A stretch of 64,000 nucleotides of DNA from Corynebacterium otitidis ATCC 51513. GTDB taxonomy: Bacteria > Actinomycetota > Actinomycetes > Mycobacteriales > Mycobacteriaceae. This document shows, one piece after another, positions 13,766 to 20,104 of this stretch (its first letter is position 1; each line of letters opens with the position of its first letter). A model generated the notes under the pieces. That model saw only the letters and a program-made list of their open reading frames with translations. It ran no database searches and had not been told where the DNA came from. A program made the position numbers and the translations under genes. The stretch spans positions 202,620 to 266,619 of the forward strand of contig NZ_JH815193.1 of the NCBI RefSeq assembly GCF_000296405.1, in the 5' to 3' direction.

Positions 13766-14818
13766 CTAGGGCGCGAGGCCGCTGAGGCTTAAGCCCGCGT
13801 CCTCCGGCTGGCCGAGGGCGAGGTTGAGGCACTGGATCGCCGCGCCGGCGGTGCCCTTGGTGAGGTTGTCGATAACAGAGGTGATCACCGCGGTGCCGGT
13901 GGCCTCGTCGACGGCGACCTGGAGGTGGCAGGAGTTCGAGCCGACGACGTTCTGCGTCTCGGGCTGGGCGCCCTCGGCGAGCAGGTGAATAAACGGCTCC
14001 GCGTCGGCGAACTCCTGGTAGGCGGCGCGCAGTGCGGCAGGCGTCGCGCCGGCGCTCAGCTTGGCGCTCGCGACGGTGAGGATCCCGCGGGTCAGGGGCG
14101 CGAGCACAGGGGTGAACGACACCGCGACGTCCCGCCCCGAGGCGGCCTTGAGGTTCTGGGCGATCTCCGGGGTGTGGCGGTGGGCGCCTGCGACCTTGTA
14201 GGCCCGCAGCGAGCCGATCACCTCCCCGGCGAGCAGCCCGACGCTGGGCTTCTTGCCCGCCCCGGACACCCCAGTCACCGAGGTAACCGCCGCGGCCGGC
14301 TCGAGGAGCCCCGCGGCCACCCCGGGAGCCAGGGCGAGGGTCGCGCCCGTGGGGAAGCAGCCCGGCACGGCGATCGCGCGGCTCGCCCGGACCTCCTCGC
14401 GCCTACCGGGGAGCTCCGGGAGGCCGTAGGTCCACGCGCCCGGGTACTCCCCGCCGTAGAACGCCGCCCAGTCGGCCGGGTCGGTGAGCCTGTGGTCGGC
14501 GGAGCAGTCGATGAGCAGCGGCGCGTCGGGCCCCTCGGAGAGCTCCCCGGTCAGCGCCGCGCCCGCGGCGTGCGGGAGGCAGAGGATCACTGCGTCGCAG
14601 CCGGCGAGCGCCTCCGCGGAGGTCTCCTCGACGACCCGGCCGGCGAGCTGCGGGTGGGCGGGCAGCACCTCGTCCGCCGGGCGGCCCGCGGAGGACTTGC
14701 CCGTCAGCGGCCCGATGGCCAGCTCGCCCGATCGGAGCGCCGGGTGCCCGAGGAAAAGGCGGAGAGCCTCTCCCCCGGCGTAGCCGGTCACGCCTGCGAT
14801 GCCCACTGTTACGCTCAT
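13766..14818 (-). CDS. argC: N-acetyl-gamma-glutamyl-phosphate reductase
   Basis: A 350-residue NADPH-dependent reductase making N-acetylglutamate semialdehyde. The N-terminal nucleotide-binding turn [12 protein letters not shown] and the catalytic cysteine motif [12 protein letters not shown] are present. The start is ATG 14818. The -10 box TATGAT (14827-14832) ends 8 nt upstream, so the message should be leaderless. It is the first gene of the arginine operon. In related genomes argC directly follows pheT. Here 2.7 kb of displaced pheT tail and mobile DNA separate them. Confidence 0.96.
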
Positions 14819-14864: not shown

Positions 14865-14937
14865 CTTGCCGGGCGAAAGCACCGTCCCGCGCCCGCTCCG
14901 CTTCACCCTTCCGTGCGGCACGCGCCGAGACGCGAAA

Positions 14938-14970
14938 AGGCCCGGCCCCCTGTCGTTGGGGACCGGGCCT
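14938..14970 (-). terminator. Displaced native pheT terminator
   Basis: An 8-bp stem AGGCCCGG/CCGGGCCT with an inner CCC/GGG is followed on the minus strand by a short T-run (CCTTTTCGC). It lies about 25 bp past the stop of the pheT fragment and upstream of the argC promoter. It apparently belonged to the original pheT. Confidence 0.7.
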
Positions 14971-14995
14971 CGGCCAGGAATCGGGCGGGTTCCCG

Positions 14996-15175
14996 CTAGG
15001 CGCGCACCTCCGCGCCGAGCTGCTCGCGGGCGGCTTCGACGGCGCGCTCGCGCACCGGGTTGACCTCCTCGAGCCACTCGCCCGCCGCGGCGACGAGCAC
15101 CCCGCGCAGCCGCTCCGCCGACACGGCGGAGTCCACGAGCAGCGCGACGTCCTGGTTGAGCGCCGGGGACGGGGA
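14996..15175 (-). pseudogene. Displaced C-terminal fragment of pheT with internal deletion
   Basis: Translated on the minus strand, this stretch reads as PheT residues of about 750-783 (..LNQDVALLVDSAVSAERLRG..GEWLEE) joined in frame to about 821-843 (VNPVRERAVEAAREQLGAEVRA) and a TAG stop. About 37 residues are missing between the two parts. It aligns without gaps to the 3' end of the full-length pheT at 17573, but is clearly diverged in DNA and more GC-rich, like the surrounding chromosome. It keeps its own terminator. The upstream side is joined directly to a dead IS481-type transposase. It is best read as the original pheT tail, cut off and partly deleted. Confidence 0.8.
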
Positions 15176-15717
15176 TCGACATCAACAAACTCGGCCCGGT
15201 CTCTGATGGCGACAGCTGGCGCGCCGACGGACGAGAACATAAACACTGCTCACGTCACTGTTCCGGTGTCGGCTACGTGCACCTCCATCATGTCGTCTAG
15301 GACTGCTCCAGACTCGCTTACTCGTAGATGCTCGAGACTGAGAAGAAAAAGACAAAAACAGGATTCCGAACCCGGGCACGTGACGCCTTCGCGGGCTATG
15401 GGACCACGATCGAGCCGGTCATGACCGACAACGCTCCTGGGTATCGCTCGAAGTCGTTGAACTAGCTGCTGGAGGACCAGGGGATCAGCCACAAGTGCAC
15501 GCGAGCGTATCGGCCGCAGACCAATGGTAAGGACTCGCGGTTCAACCGGACACCGCTCGCGGAGTCGGCGCATGTCGATAACTATAACGGCGAAACCGCC
15601 CGTGCGCGGCGGTATCCGGGGTGGTTGCATGACTACAACCACCACCGGCCCCACCACGGTTTGGGCGGTCTGTACCCCGTAAAGGTCGTCTACGACTTCA
15701 CGGGGAAACTACACCAA
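15175..15717 (+). pseudogene. Dead IS481-family transposase remnant
   Basis: A single reading frame on the plus strand (codons at 15175, 15178 and onward) gives an IS481-type DDE domain: IDINKLGPVSDGDSWRADGR, then DCSRLAYS, MTDNAPGYRS, HKCTRAYRPQTNGKDSRFNR and WLHDYNHHRPHHGLGG. Three in-frame TAG codons (15298, 15325, 15463) interrupt it. The first catalytic Asp is at or beside a stop, and the third catalytic residue (normally Glu in KAERFNR) reads Ser. The N-terminal helix-turn-helix part is missing because the frame begins abruptly at the pheT-fragment junction. It cannot encode an active enzyme. Confidence 0.8.
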
Positions 15718-15884
15718 GGGCTCCACGGAATTAGCGACAGCGACGCCCGTTACCGTGGTTCGCGTCCCGGCCAGCCCAGCTAGGCTCGGGACCGGTCGCT
15801 GGCCTCGGCATGGCTGTCCTGCCCTGTCTGCACAATGATCCGGGGGGTGTTGCCACCGAGGTACCAAGACGCGCTCGACGGCCA
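15718..15884. other. Unassigned sequence between two insertion elements
   Basis: This 167-bp stretch lies between the dead IS481 remnant and the left end of the IS110 element. No convincing coding frame, terminator or repeat was found. It may hold the original right end of the IS481 copy. Confidence 0.4.
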
Positions 15885-17361
15885 ATAGGGACATGACTCC
15901 CGACGAAGATTCGGTGAAGTCTCAACGTAACGTGGATGTCTGCCTGCCGCGTCATGACCAGCGATCTTTCCCCATATTCCGCTATCGCACCCGAAGGGTG
16001 AACCATGACCGCGGCCACCTCATTCAAGGTGATCATCGGCCTCGACGTCGGCAAAACAGGCCACCACGCGTGCGCCCTGTCCGCCGACGGCAGCCGCCGA
16101 TACTTCGATAAACCCCTACCCCAAGACGAGAGCAAACTCCGAGACCTATTCACCAGCCTCCAAGCCCACGGGCCAGTGCTTCTCGTCGTCGACCAGCCCA
16201 ACACCATCGGCGCTCTTCCCGTTGCCGTCGCCCGCGACTGCAGTGTTGCCGTCGCGTACCTTCCCGGCTTAGCGATGCGCAAAGCCGCCGCCCTGCACCC
16301 AGGCACGGCGAAAACCGACAAGCGCGACGCGTTCATCATCGCCGAGACCGCCCGCACCATCCCAGCCACTTTGAGAAAGGCCGACCACAACGACGAAGCG
16401 CTCTCTACCCTCAAAGCGCTCGCCGGGTTCGACGAGGACATCACCCGCGATTGTTCGCGCACCATCAACCGGCTACGCAGCGCCCTGCTCCAGATCCACC
16501 CAGCCTTAGAACGTGTCTTCGCGGGCGGGACGATCACCCGTAGTGCCGTTCTTGACCTGCTGGAACACTACGGCGGACCCACCAAGCTGCGGGCGGCAGG
16601 CAAGAGTCATGTCACCGCTTGGATCAACCGGCGCTGCCGAGGCGACCACACCGATCTCGTCGCGGCTATCTTCCACGCATTAGACCAACAGACCGTCGTA
16701 GTGCCCGGAACCAGCGCCATCGAACGCACGATCCCGCTGCTCGCCTCCAACATCAAAATGTTCAAAAAACAGCGCGACCTGATCGCCGCCGAGGTCAACG
16801 AGGTGGTCGATGCCCTCCCTCTTTATGAAATCTTGACATCCATCCCCGGGGTGGGTGTGGGGATCGCTACCTCGATCCTGATGGCCGTAGGCGACTGCTC
16901 TGACTTCCCCGATGCGACACATCTAGCCTCCTATGCCGGCATCGCGCCCACGACTCGAAGATCGGGAACATCGATCAGAGGAGAGCACCCGTCCCGGGCC
17001 GGGAATAAGCGCTTGAAGAACGCGCTGTTTCGATCGGCCTGGATATCCACTAACTGCCACGAAGCCTCACGCGACTACTACCAGCGGAAACGACGCGAGG
17101 GTAAACGCCACAACGCGGCGGTGATGTGCCTGGCACGTCGACGGTGCAACATGATCTACGCGATGCTGACCAGGAAAGAGTTCTTCCGAGACGAACCACG
17201 AACACCCATCCTGGCGGCCGCCTAGCACAACAGACCTGGCACGACGCTTGCACACACAGCCATGCAGGCGCCGCGATCAAGTGCGCCCGGATCCGGGGCT
17301 ACGCCCGGTAGCCCATCCGTAGCCGGGCGTCTGCTACAGCTTGACACCAGACATAGGGACA
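15885..17361 (+). mobile_element. IS110-family insertion sequence
   Basis: The element carries one intact transposase gene. The 9-mer ATAGGGACA occurs at 15885-15893 and again at 17353-17361, 1468 bp apart, which suits the flanking core repeats of IS110 elements (no long terminal inverted repeats). Non-coding ends of about 110 bp (left) and 127 bp (right) flank the gene. The right end holds a hairpin ACGCCCGG/CCGGGCGT (17301-17308 with 17323-17330). Base composition is less GC-rich than the backbone. The exact ends are inferred from the repeat. Confidence 0.7.
16005..17225 (+). CDS. IS110-family transposase (DEDD recombinase)
   Basis: A 406-residue, apparently intact transposase. The N-terminal RuvC-like DEDD domain contains IIGLDVGKTGHHA, LLVVDQPN and GTAKTDKRDAFIIAE. 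The C-terminal IS116/IS110/IS902 domain contains LTSIPGVGVGIATSILMAVG, LASYAGIAPTTRRSGTS with the probable catalytic Ser, and GNKRLKNALF. A small hairpin CACCC-GAA-GGGTG lies immediately before the ATG and includes the putative ribosome binding site. Members of this family are guided by a non-coding bridge RNA from the element's own ends, so the flanking non-coding regions deserve attention. It may be active; no inactivating change was seen. Confidence 0.92.
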   Translation: MTAATSFKVIIGLDVGKTGHHACALSADGSRRYFDKPLPQDESKLRDLFTSLQAHGPVLLVVDQPNTIGALPVAVARDCSVAVAYLPGLAMRKAAALHPGTAKTDKRDAFIIAETARTIPATLRKADHNDEALSTLKALAGFDEDITRDCSRTINRLRSALLQIHPALERVFAGGTITRSAVLDLLEHYGGPTKLRAAGKSHVTAWINRRCRGDHTDLVAAIFHALDQQTVVVPGTSAIERTIPLLASNIKMFKKQRDLIAAEVNEVVDALPLYEILTSIPGVGVGIATSILMAVGDCSDFPDATHLASYAGIAPTTRRSGTSIRGEHPSRAGNKRLKNALFRSAWISTNCHEASRDYYQRKRREGKRHNAAVMCLARRRCNMIYAMLTRKEFFRDEPRTPILAAA

Positions 17362-17572
17362 CCCCGGTCTGCTCTCACTTCGTTTAAGGGGGCTCGCTCA
17401 GGAACGTGATCCCTTGTGAAGTGCGAAAACGCAGCTCCCCACCCGGTTCACCGGGTGGGGAGCTGCAGGATCCCTGTCAGGGGTGGTTGCTCGTTGTTAG
17501 CGTGTCGATCTGTGAATTTATTTTAGTCTCGCGCTCGAGCGGCTCGCCGTCACAGTGGCGGCAGGGGTGCTG
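17226..17572. other. IS110 right end and pheT downstream region
   Basis: 347 bp without a gene. It holds the non-coding right end of the IS110 element with its hairpin (to 17361), about 70 bp of unassigned sequence, the pheT terminator (17432-17465), and about 100 bp of less GC-rich sequence directly after the pheT stop. None of it resembles the neighbouring backbone. Confidence 0.6.
17432..17465 (-). terminator. Terminator of the current pheT
   Basis: A perfect 15-bp stem CAGCTCCCCACCCGG/CCGGGTGGGGAGCTG with a 4-nt loop is followed on the minus strand by CGTTTTCGC. It differs from the native pheT terminator at 14938, so it seems to have arrived with the foreign 3' end. Confidence 0.8.
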
Positions 17573-20104
17573 CTACTCCCTCAGCTCCGCACCTAGTTTC
17601 TCTAGCGCCTGCTCCGCGATCGCGGCTCGAACGCCGTTGACCTCGGTATCCGTCAACGTGCGGTCGGGCGCACGGAAGCGCAGCGTGAACGCCAGCGACT
17701 TGCGTCCCTCGCCCAACTGGTCCGAGCGGTACACATCAAACAACGTCGCGTCCTCAAGCCACTCACCCGCCGCCGCAATGATCACCGCGCGCACTTTCGC
17801 AGCAGAGACCTCTGTATCGACAACCAAGGCAATATCCTGGTGGAGCGCCGGGAACGACGACAGCACCGGCGCCGGCAGCACGTCTTCGATCGGCAGGGCG
17901 CTAAGGTCCAGCTCCATCGCGCAGGTGCGCTCCGGCAGGCCCAGCTCCTGGAGCACCTTCGGGTGCAGCTCGCCCGCGTAGCCGACGACCACCCCGCCGA
18001 CGGAGAGCTCCGCGCAGCGGCCCGGGTGCCAGGGAGCGCGCTCCGCGTTTGCGACGCCCAGCTCGACGCCCGCGGTGCGGGCCACGAGGCGGGCGGACTC
18101 CACAGCGTCAGACCACGCGTAGCCGCGGCCCTCGCCCCACGGGCCCGCCGGCACGACGGAGCCCGCGCCGACGGTCGCGACGTGCAGCGGCTGCGCCGGC
18201 AGGGAGCCGACGACCGCGGCGACCTCCTCCTCGGAGGGGCGCTTCTTCACCGAGGGCATCGGCGAGCGGTCCTCCCCGCGGAAGGAGACTTGCGCGACCG
18301 AGTAGAGCCGCGCGTCCGACAGGCCGCGGGCGACGTTGCGGCCCAGCGCCTCGAGCATCGCGGGCAGAAGCGTCGTCGCGAGCCGGTCGTAGTCCCGGTC
18401 GAGCGGGTTCTGCACCGCGACAGTGTTGCGCAGCGGGTCGTCGGCGTCGAGCCCCCAGCTATCGAAGACGGTGGCGTCGAGGAAGGGGCTGGGGATGATC
18501 TCGGCGTAGCCGTTGTAGGCCAGAGCGTGGCCCACGGCGCGGCGGCGGCGCTGCGCCGGGGTGAGCCCCCGCCCGCCGCGCGGGCTGGGGAGCTCGAGCG
18601 GGATGTCCTCGAGCCCCTCGAGGCGCACGACCTCCTCGACGAGGTCGGCGGGCATGACGAGGTCGCCGCGCCACGTCGGCGGCGTCACGGTGAGGGTCTC
18701 CTCGCCCTCGACGGCGCAGCCCACCTCCTTGAGGCGCGCGACGACCGTCTCCCGCGGGTAGTCGACGCCGGCGACCGTCGCGGGCCGCGAGGCGGCCATC
18801 TCGATGCTCGCGGGCTCGGGCACGTCGCCGACGAGGGTGCGCCCGGCGGCGACCTCCCCGCCGCCGAGGCCCGCGAGCAGCCGCGCCGCGACGTCGAGCG
18901 CGGACTCGACGAGCGCGGGGTCGACGCCGCGCTCGAAGCGGCGGGAGGCCTCCGAGGGGAGCTTGTGGCGCTTCGCGGCGCGCGCGACGCCGAGCTCGTC
19001 CCAGCGGGCCGCCTCGAGGAGCACGGTGTCGGTGTCCTCGGCGATCTCCGTGCGCAGGCCGCCCATGACGCCCGCGAGCGAGACCGGCCCGCGGTCGTCG
19101 ACGATGACGACGTCGTCCGGGTCAAGCTCGTGCTCGGTGTGGTCGAGGGTCTCCAGGCGCTCGCCGGCGGCGGCCTTGCGCACCACGAGCGGGCCCTCGA
19201 CGCGGGCGGCGTCGAAGGCGTGCATCGGCTGGCCGAGGAGGATCATGACGAGGTTCGTCACGTCGGTCGCGACGTTGACCGGGCGGATCCCGGAGAGCAT
19301 GAGGATGCGCTGCAGCCACAGCGGGGACTCCGCGCCGGCCTTGACGCCGCGCACCTCGCGGAGCCCGAAGCGCGCCGCGCCGGTCTCCTCGCGCAGCTCC
19401 ACGGGGAGCGCCTCGCCGGCGACCTCCGGGAGCGCCGCGCGCGGCACGTCCGCGCCGCGCGCCGCCGCGCTCAGCCCGACCTCCGGGTCGTCCTTGAGGT
19501 CGGTGAAGCTCAGCCCGAACGCGGAGGACAGCTCGCGGGTGAGGCCTCGGGCGGAGAGCGCGTAGCCGCGGTCCGGGGTGACGTTGACCTCGAAGACCGT
19601 GTCGTTAAGCCCGACGACGTCGCGGGCGTCGGTGCCCGGTGCGATGCCCGGGTTCGGGCCTAAGTCGATGATCCCGGAGTTCTGCTTGGTCGCGAGCCCG
19701 AGCTCCGCCGCGGAGGCGAGCATGCCCTCCGAGATGTGGTCGTAGGTCTTGCGCGGCTCGATGCGGAAGTCCCCGGGCAGCACCGCTCCCGGCAGGCACA
19801 CCACGACGTGCGAGCCCTCGCGGAAGTTGCGCGCGCCGCAGATGATGCGCTGCGGCTCGCCGGTGCCGTTCGCGTCGCCCACGTCGACCGCGCAGTAGCG
19901 GATCGGCTTCTTGAACCCCTCGAGCTCCTCGATCGAGTCGACGCGGCCGACGACGATCGGGCCGGTCGACTCGGGGATCGGGGCGTAGCCCTCGGTCTCG
20001 AAGCCGACGCTCACGAAGCCGCGGTCGACCTCCTCCGAGGAGGGAGCGAAGCCCTCGTTGGCGTGGGCGAGGATGTCGGTGAGCCAGTTCTGCGAGATGA
20101 GCAC
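17573..20104 (-). CDS. pheT: Phenylalanyl-tRNA synthetase beta subunit (chimeric 3' end)
   Basis: An 843-residue PheRS beta chain: tRNA-binding OB-like domain (about 40-150), B3/B4 editing domain, B5 domain, core and a C-terminal ferredoxin-fold anticodon-binding domain (about 750-843). The start is GTG 20104 with GGAG 5 nt upstream. The first 2.2 kb has the strongly GC-biased codons of the region. From about 17855 to the stop, AT-ending codons become common (for example ATG ATC, GTA TCC, CTC AAG), and the segment begins exactly where the displaced native fragment at 15175 breaks off. The 3' end therefore looks replaced by homologous foreign DNA while the frame and domain stayed intact. It forms an alpha2beta2 enzyme with pheS. 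Confidence 0.95.
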   Translation of the reverse strand: MLISQNWLTDILAHANEGFAPSSEEVDRGFVSVGFETEGYAPIPESTGPIVVGRVDSIEELEGFKKPIRYCAVDVGDANGTGEPQRIICGARNFREGSHVVVCLPGAVLPGDFRIEPRKTYDHISEGMLASAAELGLATKQNSGIIDLGPNPGIAPGTDARDVVGLNDTVFEVNVTPDRGYALSARGLTRELSSAFGLSFTDLKDDPEVGLSAAARGADVPRAALPEVAGEALPVELREETGAARFGLREVRGVKAGAESPLWLQRILMLSGIRPVNVATDVTNLVMILLGQPMHAFDAARVEGPLVVRKAAAGERLETLDHTEHELDPDDVVIVDDRGPVSLAGVMGGLRTEIAEDTDTVLLEAARWDELGVARAAKRHKLPSEASRRFERGVDPALVESALDVAARLLAGLGGGEVAAGRTLVGDVPEPASIEMAASRPATVAGVDYPRETVVARLKEVGCAVEGEETLTVTPPTWRGDLVMPADLVEEVVRLEGLEDIPLELPSPRGGRGLTPAQRRRRAVGHALAYNGYAEIIPSPFLDATVFDSWGLDADDPLRNTVAVQNPLDRDYDRLATTLLPAMLEALGRNVARGLSDARLYSVAQVSFRGEDRSPMPSVKKRPSEEEVAAVVGSLPAQPLHVATVGAGSVVPAGPWGEGRGYAWSDAVESARLVARTAGVELGVANAERAPWHPGRCAELSVGGVVVGYAGELHPKVLQELGLPERTCAMELDLSALPIEDVLPAPVLSSFPALHQDIALVVDTEVSAAKVRAVIIAAAGEWLEDATLFDVYRSDQLGEGRKSLAFTLRFRAPDRTLTDTEVNGVRAAIAEQALEKLGAELRE

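Follow-up and report, generated by a model that had tools for sequence, protein, structure and literature searches.

Several routes are known by which incoming DNA gives a bacterial gene a new 3′ end or leaves its old end displaced. Displacement of the C-termini of Rhs proteins is described in the available part of the study by Jackson et al. (2009; PMC2935791), where homologous recombination with circular intermediates is proposed. According to the accessible portion of PMC11148124, the element e14 entered the icd gene after codon 362, the frame being kept open and a 165-bp duplicate lying on the other side. For conjugation in Escherichia coli, the sections of PMC3240628 at hand report that most Lac− clones were single crossovers with duplication, formed by circles from which a portion of the fragment was missing, and that 4 of 60 Lac− clones were of the illegitimate type. 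The locus considered in the present study is pheT of Corynebacterium otitidis ATCC 51513, an essential aminoacyl-tRNA synthetase gene located in a 64,000-nucleotide stretch of contig NZ_JH815193.1 (positions 202,620 to 266,619; hereafter the window, from whose first letter positions are counted), which has a guanine-plus-cytosine (GC) content of 71.6% and belongs to contig 2 of a genome of 2.12 Mb. The body and the C-terminal end of this pheT are of different origin, judged by composition, and the old pheT end is kept downstream, in order.

Composition and Domain Structure of the Hybrid pheT Gene

The hybrid pheT is a single open frame on the minus strand (17573–20104), encoding 843 amino acids without an internal stop, and its relatives among the named-record matches listed belong to Corynebacterium. 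Codons 1–748 (17861–20104, minus strand) form the native body, with the B3/4, B5 and CLM domains and a third-position GC of 0.976, the values for pheS, argC, argJ and argD being 0.94–0.99. The remainder, codons 749–843 and the stop (17573–17860, minus strand), is composed differently: A or T occupies the third position in 22 of the 96 codons from codon 749 onward (stop included), against 18 of the 748 codons ahead of it (Fisher p = 3.6e-12), and third-position GC from codon 757 is 0.75. The statement of an earlier note on this DNA that the 3′ segment is less GC-rich than the rest of the gene is thus borne out. Its boundary needed a small correction, as homology begins with codon 749 (17860) and not at 17855. 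A likelihood changepoint analysis placed the best break at codon 757 (17836), from about which the sequence appears foreign; the twelve best positions comprised codons 752–757 and 729–734, with a spread of at most 1.5 log-likelihood units. The part with shifted composition is the FDX-ACB anticodon-binding domain, which the Pfam search recognised at residues 749–842 over model positions 1–94 of 94 (94.8 bits).

A comparison with relatives used 47 of 54 pheT loci retained by a tail pattern (seven were dropped), all being best matches and not a random sample. The body-to-tail change in third-position GC is −0.197 in the hybrid gene, while the 47 relatives have a mean of −0.002 (standard deviation 0.066) and a lowest value of −0.157 (genome G224); the drop seen here is the biggest, though the margin is modest.

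The Displaced pheT End Next to argC

The gene argC (13766–14818, minus strand), recognised by its Pfam semialdehyde dehydrogenase domains, is the usual downstream neighbour of pheT, and a second pheT end (14996–15175, minus strand) lies 177 bp from it, on the same strand as the hybrid pheT and 2.4 kb away from the latter. This remnant consists of codons 749–785 fused to codons 822–843 and a stop, codons 786–821 being deleted in frame; the loss reported in the earlier note is therefore real, but amounts to 36 codons (108 bp) and not 37, and the reading is open as far as the remnant's own stop. The remnant was detected by a protein search of the genome (E 5.3e-9), and its DNA aligns with the hybrid end at 72% identity over 106 bp (E 4e-12); its FDX-ACB score of 27.9 bits is below the cut-off of 31.1, the copy being shortened. 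Of its 60 codons, 59 have G or C in the third position (0.98), and among the 18 conserved columns of a 13-row alignment that fall within the kept parts, 16 are unaltered; the remnant is thus a little-decayed end of the host type.

Both pheT ends are followed by terminator-like hairpins with a four-U run, one past the displaced native end (14937–14971, minus strand; −33.8 kcal/mol, z −4.4) and one past the hybrid gene (17430–17467, minus strand; −42.2 kcal/mol, z −6.2), and a consensus terminator scan listed neither of them. The description of a diverged GC-rich end beside argC with a terminator of its own accordingly holds, as far as a terminator-like hairpin is concerned. In the relatives, argC starts no more than 1.1 kb past the pheT stop in 30 of 47 cases; in the other 17, for which longer stretches were taken, it follows after 1.2–5.4 kb in 14 and is not found within the stretch in three. 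Since pheT–argC adjacency is usual there, as had been assumed, the remnant sits where pheT ends in most of the relatives examined.

The displacement of the native pheT end is well supported by these data. The opposite assignment, which takes the low-GC end as native, if unusual, and regards the GC-rich copy as the one that came in, could refer to the relatives whose tails also fall below their bodies, down to the value of G224; it has to contend with the host-like third-position GC of the copy, its usual place beside argC and the hairpin that follows it, and we consider it the least plausible of all the explanations weighed here.

Structure of the Insert

Counting from the remnant toward the hybrid pheT, the insert contains the 3′ part of a gene of an insertion sequence (IS) of the IS481 family, 27 bp, an IS110-family element and 207 bp with the new hairpin. 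The first of these (15175–15718, plus strand) is a decayed transposase gene that lacks its 5′ part and abuts the remnant; the NCBIfam IS481 profile matches it from position 135 of 284 (E 2.9e-24), at 86 bits against a whole-protein cut-off of 224. A 70% DNA match over 15175–15718 was found in genome G017, and the junction corresponds to residue 154 of the copy in genome G199. IS481 homology starts at 15175 in the most sensitive comparison and at 15261 in another one. As both the pheT homology and the IS481 homology reach 15175, the junction is free of a spacer and lies within the transposase gene.

The IS110-family element (15746–17365, plus strand) contains a transposase open reading frame at 16005–17225 with DEDD and transposase_20 domains (IS110 RNA-guided transposase, 3.4e-60), and its defined ends are common to its copies. 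It is probably a later arrival. Two further full copies, 99.4% and 99.8% identical, are present in the genome, which raises the question of whether an assembler joined two unconnected pheT ends through them. They differ from the copy in the insert by eight mismatches and a gap and by four mismatches, so an assembler could separate them; moreover, the join keeps the pheT–argC order of the relatives, and the composition break lies within pheT, about 470 bp from IS110. An assembly artefact, named in the earlier note as a possible refutation, is consequently very unlikely. At several places elsewhere in the genome (contig C3, 250830–273495), the outer 67–95 bp alone of this IS110 were matched, which may point to a relative of IS110 whose middle part differs.

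The spacer between the hybrid pheT stop and IS110 (17366–17572, 207 bp) gave a 42-bp match as its sole match in the genus, where scoring two candidates per genome made the test a weak one, and no match in the plasmid collection.

Search for the Source of the Foreign End

DNA matches longer than 200 bp to the foreign end did not exceed 72% identity in the genus, with two candidates scored per genome. The composition thus agrees with the foreign lineage suggested for the 3′ segment in the earlier note, while these matches did not reveal its source. At the protein level, the closest sequences to the foreign end are 72% (genome G124) and 70% identical, and the pheT body reaches 68% at best (genome G108). 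Four rare residues (S17, A28, W32 and V75), absent or nearly so in 38 distinct ends of relatives, are common to the remnant and the foreign end, whereas the closest of these 38 has two of them; the best match of the remnant is the foreign end itself (34 of 57 residues). Because of the shared rare residues, the foreign end probably came from an unsampled near relative of lower GC content, as far as the sequences indicate. Among plasmid records, 46 matched the pheT end, and several of the 20 listed are of megabase size; it was the end, and not the body, that was scored.

Among 44 relatives, the length of the pheT–argC interval ranges between about 36 bp and 5.4 kb, and its gene content differs as well, which makes it look like a permissive landing zone. 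In G199, the interval contains an IS481 transposase and several small genes, and the third-position GC of the pheT end also falls (−0.136); another exchange may have occurred here, one that left no displaced end. In G224, whose pheT end is second to that of the window with a value 0.157 below the body, pheT and argC are 2.7 kb apart and there is no convincing second end.

The Probable Exchange Stretch and the Proposed Course of the Insertion

The likeliest exchange stretch is formed by codons 749–756, present in the hybrid gene at 17837–17860 (minus strand) and in the remnant at 15152–15175 (minus strand), pheT homology extending to 15175 in several relatives. The two copies of this 24-bp stretch at the ends of the insert have 20 of 24 bases in common, including a 10-bp identical run, and are not identical throughout. 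Both the composition break and the domain boundary coincide with the first codons of the remnant to within a few codons, which confirms that the copy begins where the composition of the hybrid gene changes. Since the copies overlap there and the changepoint is at codon 757, the data suggest one exchange in codons 749–756 without loss of host sequence; no loss is seen with a changepoint at 757, and a changepoint at 729–734 would allow up to 20 missing codons.

We consider it somewhat more probable than not that a homology-driven single exchange added DNA of a relative, giving both the hybrid pheT and the displaced tail. DNA from a close relative of lower GC content, with a pheT end, a terminator and a piece of an IS481 element on it, would have entered the cell, and one exchange with the chromosome, driven by homology, would have taken place in the conserved pheT codons 749–756 (FPALHQD motif), the simplest case being a circular or recircularised donor molecule. 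The outcome would be a complete hybrid pheT with the anticodon-binding domain and terminator of the donor, the native domain and terminator being shifted downstream and still lying beside argC; later, the orphan end would have lost its 36 codons, and IS110 would have landed in the insert. We infer in which order the events took place, what form the donor DNA had and that homology was the driver, and likewise the arrival of the 207 bp and the IS481 piece together with the foreign end. The remnant is joined to the interior of IS481, as expected of a random donor end. An IS481 of the same orientation also separates pheT from argC in G199, so such an order could be present on an ordinary piece of chromosome.

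Ordinary recombination is more likely than the action of a dedicated mobile element, considering that no recombinase match was found at the site and that none of the other genomes sampled uses it again. The single crossover with a related donor, which the earlier note had mentioned as a second choice, fits better than the integrative element that it had put first. At the same time, several observations weigh against a homology-driven exchange. With 24 bp, 20 of them matching, the exchange stretch offers little homology, and the ends are about 72% alike where aligned, which makes a poor substrate for RecA; an integrase gene could have been lost; and site-specific integration likewise predicts coinciding breakpoints. 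Furthermore, the remnant matches two other relatives at 32 of 57 residues each, so the residue evidence for a near-relative donor is slim, and neither a donor nor a circular intermediate was found in the searches made.

A related possibility is that a break at codons 749–756 was repaired by a donor fragment, one end of which was annealed by homology and restored the gene while the IS481 end was joined without it to the native codon 749, in a homology-facilitated illegitimate event that caused no deletion. Such a capture would explain how both junctions came to lie at one host position, one of them inside IS481 and without a spacer. According to PMC3240628, however, illegitimate events as a rule cost the recipient about as much DNA as is inserted, and no loss is seen at pheT; nor did the genome give any match to Ku, for which Bacillus subtilis alone gave a match among 14 control genomes. 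Repair of this kind seems improbable to us.

Recombinases and Distribution in Related Genomes

The 24-bp shared stretch neither proves nor excludes an attachment site, to judge from its sequence. Its presence at both insert ends with a 10-bp identical run, the target pheT being open as a hybrid and the native 3′ end being duplicated beyond the insert would all suit a site-specific integrative element, similar to e14 or phage 21 in icd, whose attachment site contained a replacement pheT end, which inserted in codons 749–756 so that the gene was restored, and from which integrase and cargo have since disappeared; e14 is a close anatomical model for it. Prophages of Streptococcus pyogenes are reported in PMC8115907 at a site that is specified as pheT plus the gene following it, and the pheT neighbourhood can therefore be used by phages. 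However, no recombinase match was found at the site, and the junction inside IS481 does not suit such an element either. Whole-genome searches with the Phage_integrase and Resolvase profiles found two places each, none of them in the 64-kb window. The tyrosine recombinases of the genome are XerD, which is over the cut-off, and a frame read as XerC beside dprA and rpsB. Two adjacent large serine recombinase genes (L209 and L210) are located in another contig (C4, 327004–329127); the one scanned is distantly like CcrB of SCCmec (128.6 bits, far below the cut-off of 900), and they possibly belong to a separate mobile element.

The distribution of second pheT ends in genomes also speaks against site-specific integration. 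The sets used contained one genome per species, the genus, family and class sets overlap, and the family and class scans scored at most 12–13 candidates per genome. In the genus, 239 of 242 genomes match the foreign end, all candidates being scored, and two matches occur in the C. otitidis genome only, i.e., in none of the 238 other genomes with a match. Two FDX-ACB matches were found in three of 401 genomes of the family, namely this one, G507 and G515, and in the class, where 383 of 393 genomes match, a second one was found in this genome only. No displaced pheT tail was found in any other sampled genome of the genus, family or class. A scan of the pheT–argC intervals of 17 relatives for a second end gave weak hits in two of them (E 0.42 and 0.36).

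The second FDX-ACB hit in G507 (L192, 703–1869) lies in a separate frame of 388 amino acids, and the hit in G515 (L193) is similar. When translated, the G507 protein reads as PheS-like, with a catalytic part of the PheS type ahead of an FDX-ACB domain, and is thus different from a displaced pheT end. We take it to recall the single-chain mitochondrial PheRS.

Phage sequences point in the same direction. A pheT end was matched in 15 phage records, 13 of which include the pheT body too, and the two others (H2 and H5) have the end at the edge of the record; in the seven records inspected, the annotation is little or none. A scan of viral contigs produced 60 pattern hits, none of which was confirmed. 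Taken with the points in its favour, an integrative element is unlikely as the agent, though the displacement of the native end by a foreign one, which the earlier note had ascribed to it, agrees with composition, position and hairpin. More specifically, there might be a corynebacterial class of integrase-driven elements that uses the FPALHQD codons of pheT as a site and carries spare anticodon-binding domains. This idea is quite improbable; if it were true, species would, as such elements spread, swap the domain with which an essential synthetase contacts tRNA.

Comparison with Known Systems

The displacement of Rhs C-termini resembles the arrangement at pheT in that, according to the available part of PMC2935791, a new C-terminal end stands on a conserved body and the old end is orphaned downstream. 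Unlike the arrays of dissociated ends in the accessory Rhs loci described there, a single domain is displaced at pheT, a housekeeping gene for an essential synthetase, and decay of the old end has begun. In type VI secretion system (T6SS) effector displacement in Vibrio cholerae, as presented in the accessible text of PMC5361080, a gene or domain is likewise pushed out by an incoming module, and the former neighbour gene comes to lie farther downstream; those loci encode accessory toxins, whereas pheT is a core gene.

At the site in icd of E. coli that is known from e14 and phage 21 (PMC11148124 and PMC12803456), the cryptic prophage e14 has an integrase gene, and 12 nt of 165 bp distinguish its two segments. 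The pheT locus differs from e14 in having no integrase match at the site, ends that are about 72% alike where aligned and a junction inside IS481. Homology-facilitated illegitimate recombination, as outlined in the available sections of PMC3240628, has the same combination of one homologous junction and one without homology, but it generally deletes about as much as it adds, which is not seen at pheT.

The locus is a clean record of how an essential core gene can acquire precisely one domain from a different lineage and avoid a lethal intermediate, since the gene remains complete and the old end is a fossil beside its old neighbour. It also calls for caution in the use of pheT as a phylogenetic marker, which is not free of sub-gene transfer. 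The pheT arrangement belongs with known C-terminal displacement and 3′-end regeneration, is well preserved, and indicates that the former process, known from toxin-bearing rhs genes, or the latter, known from icd, can reach an aminoacyl-tRNA synthetase.

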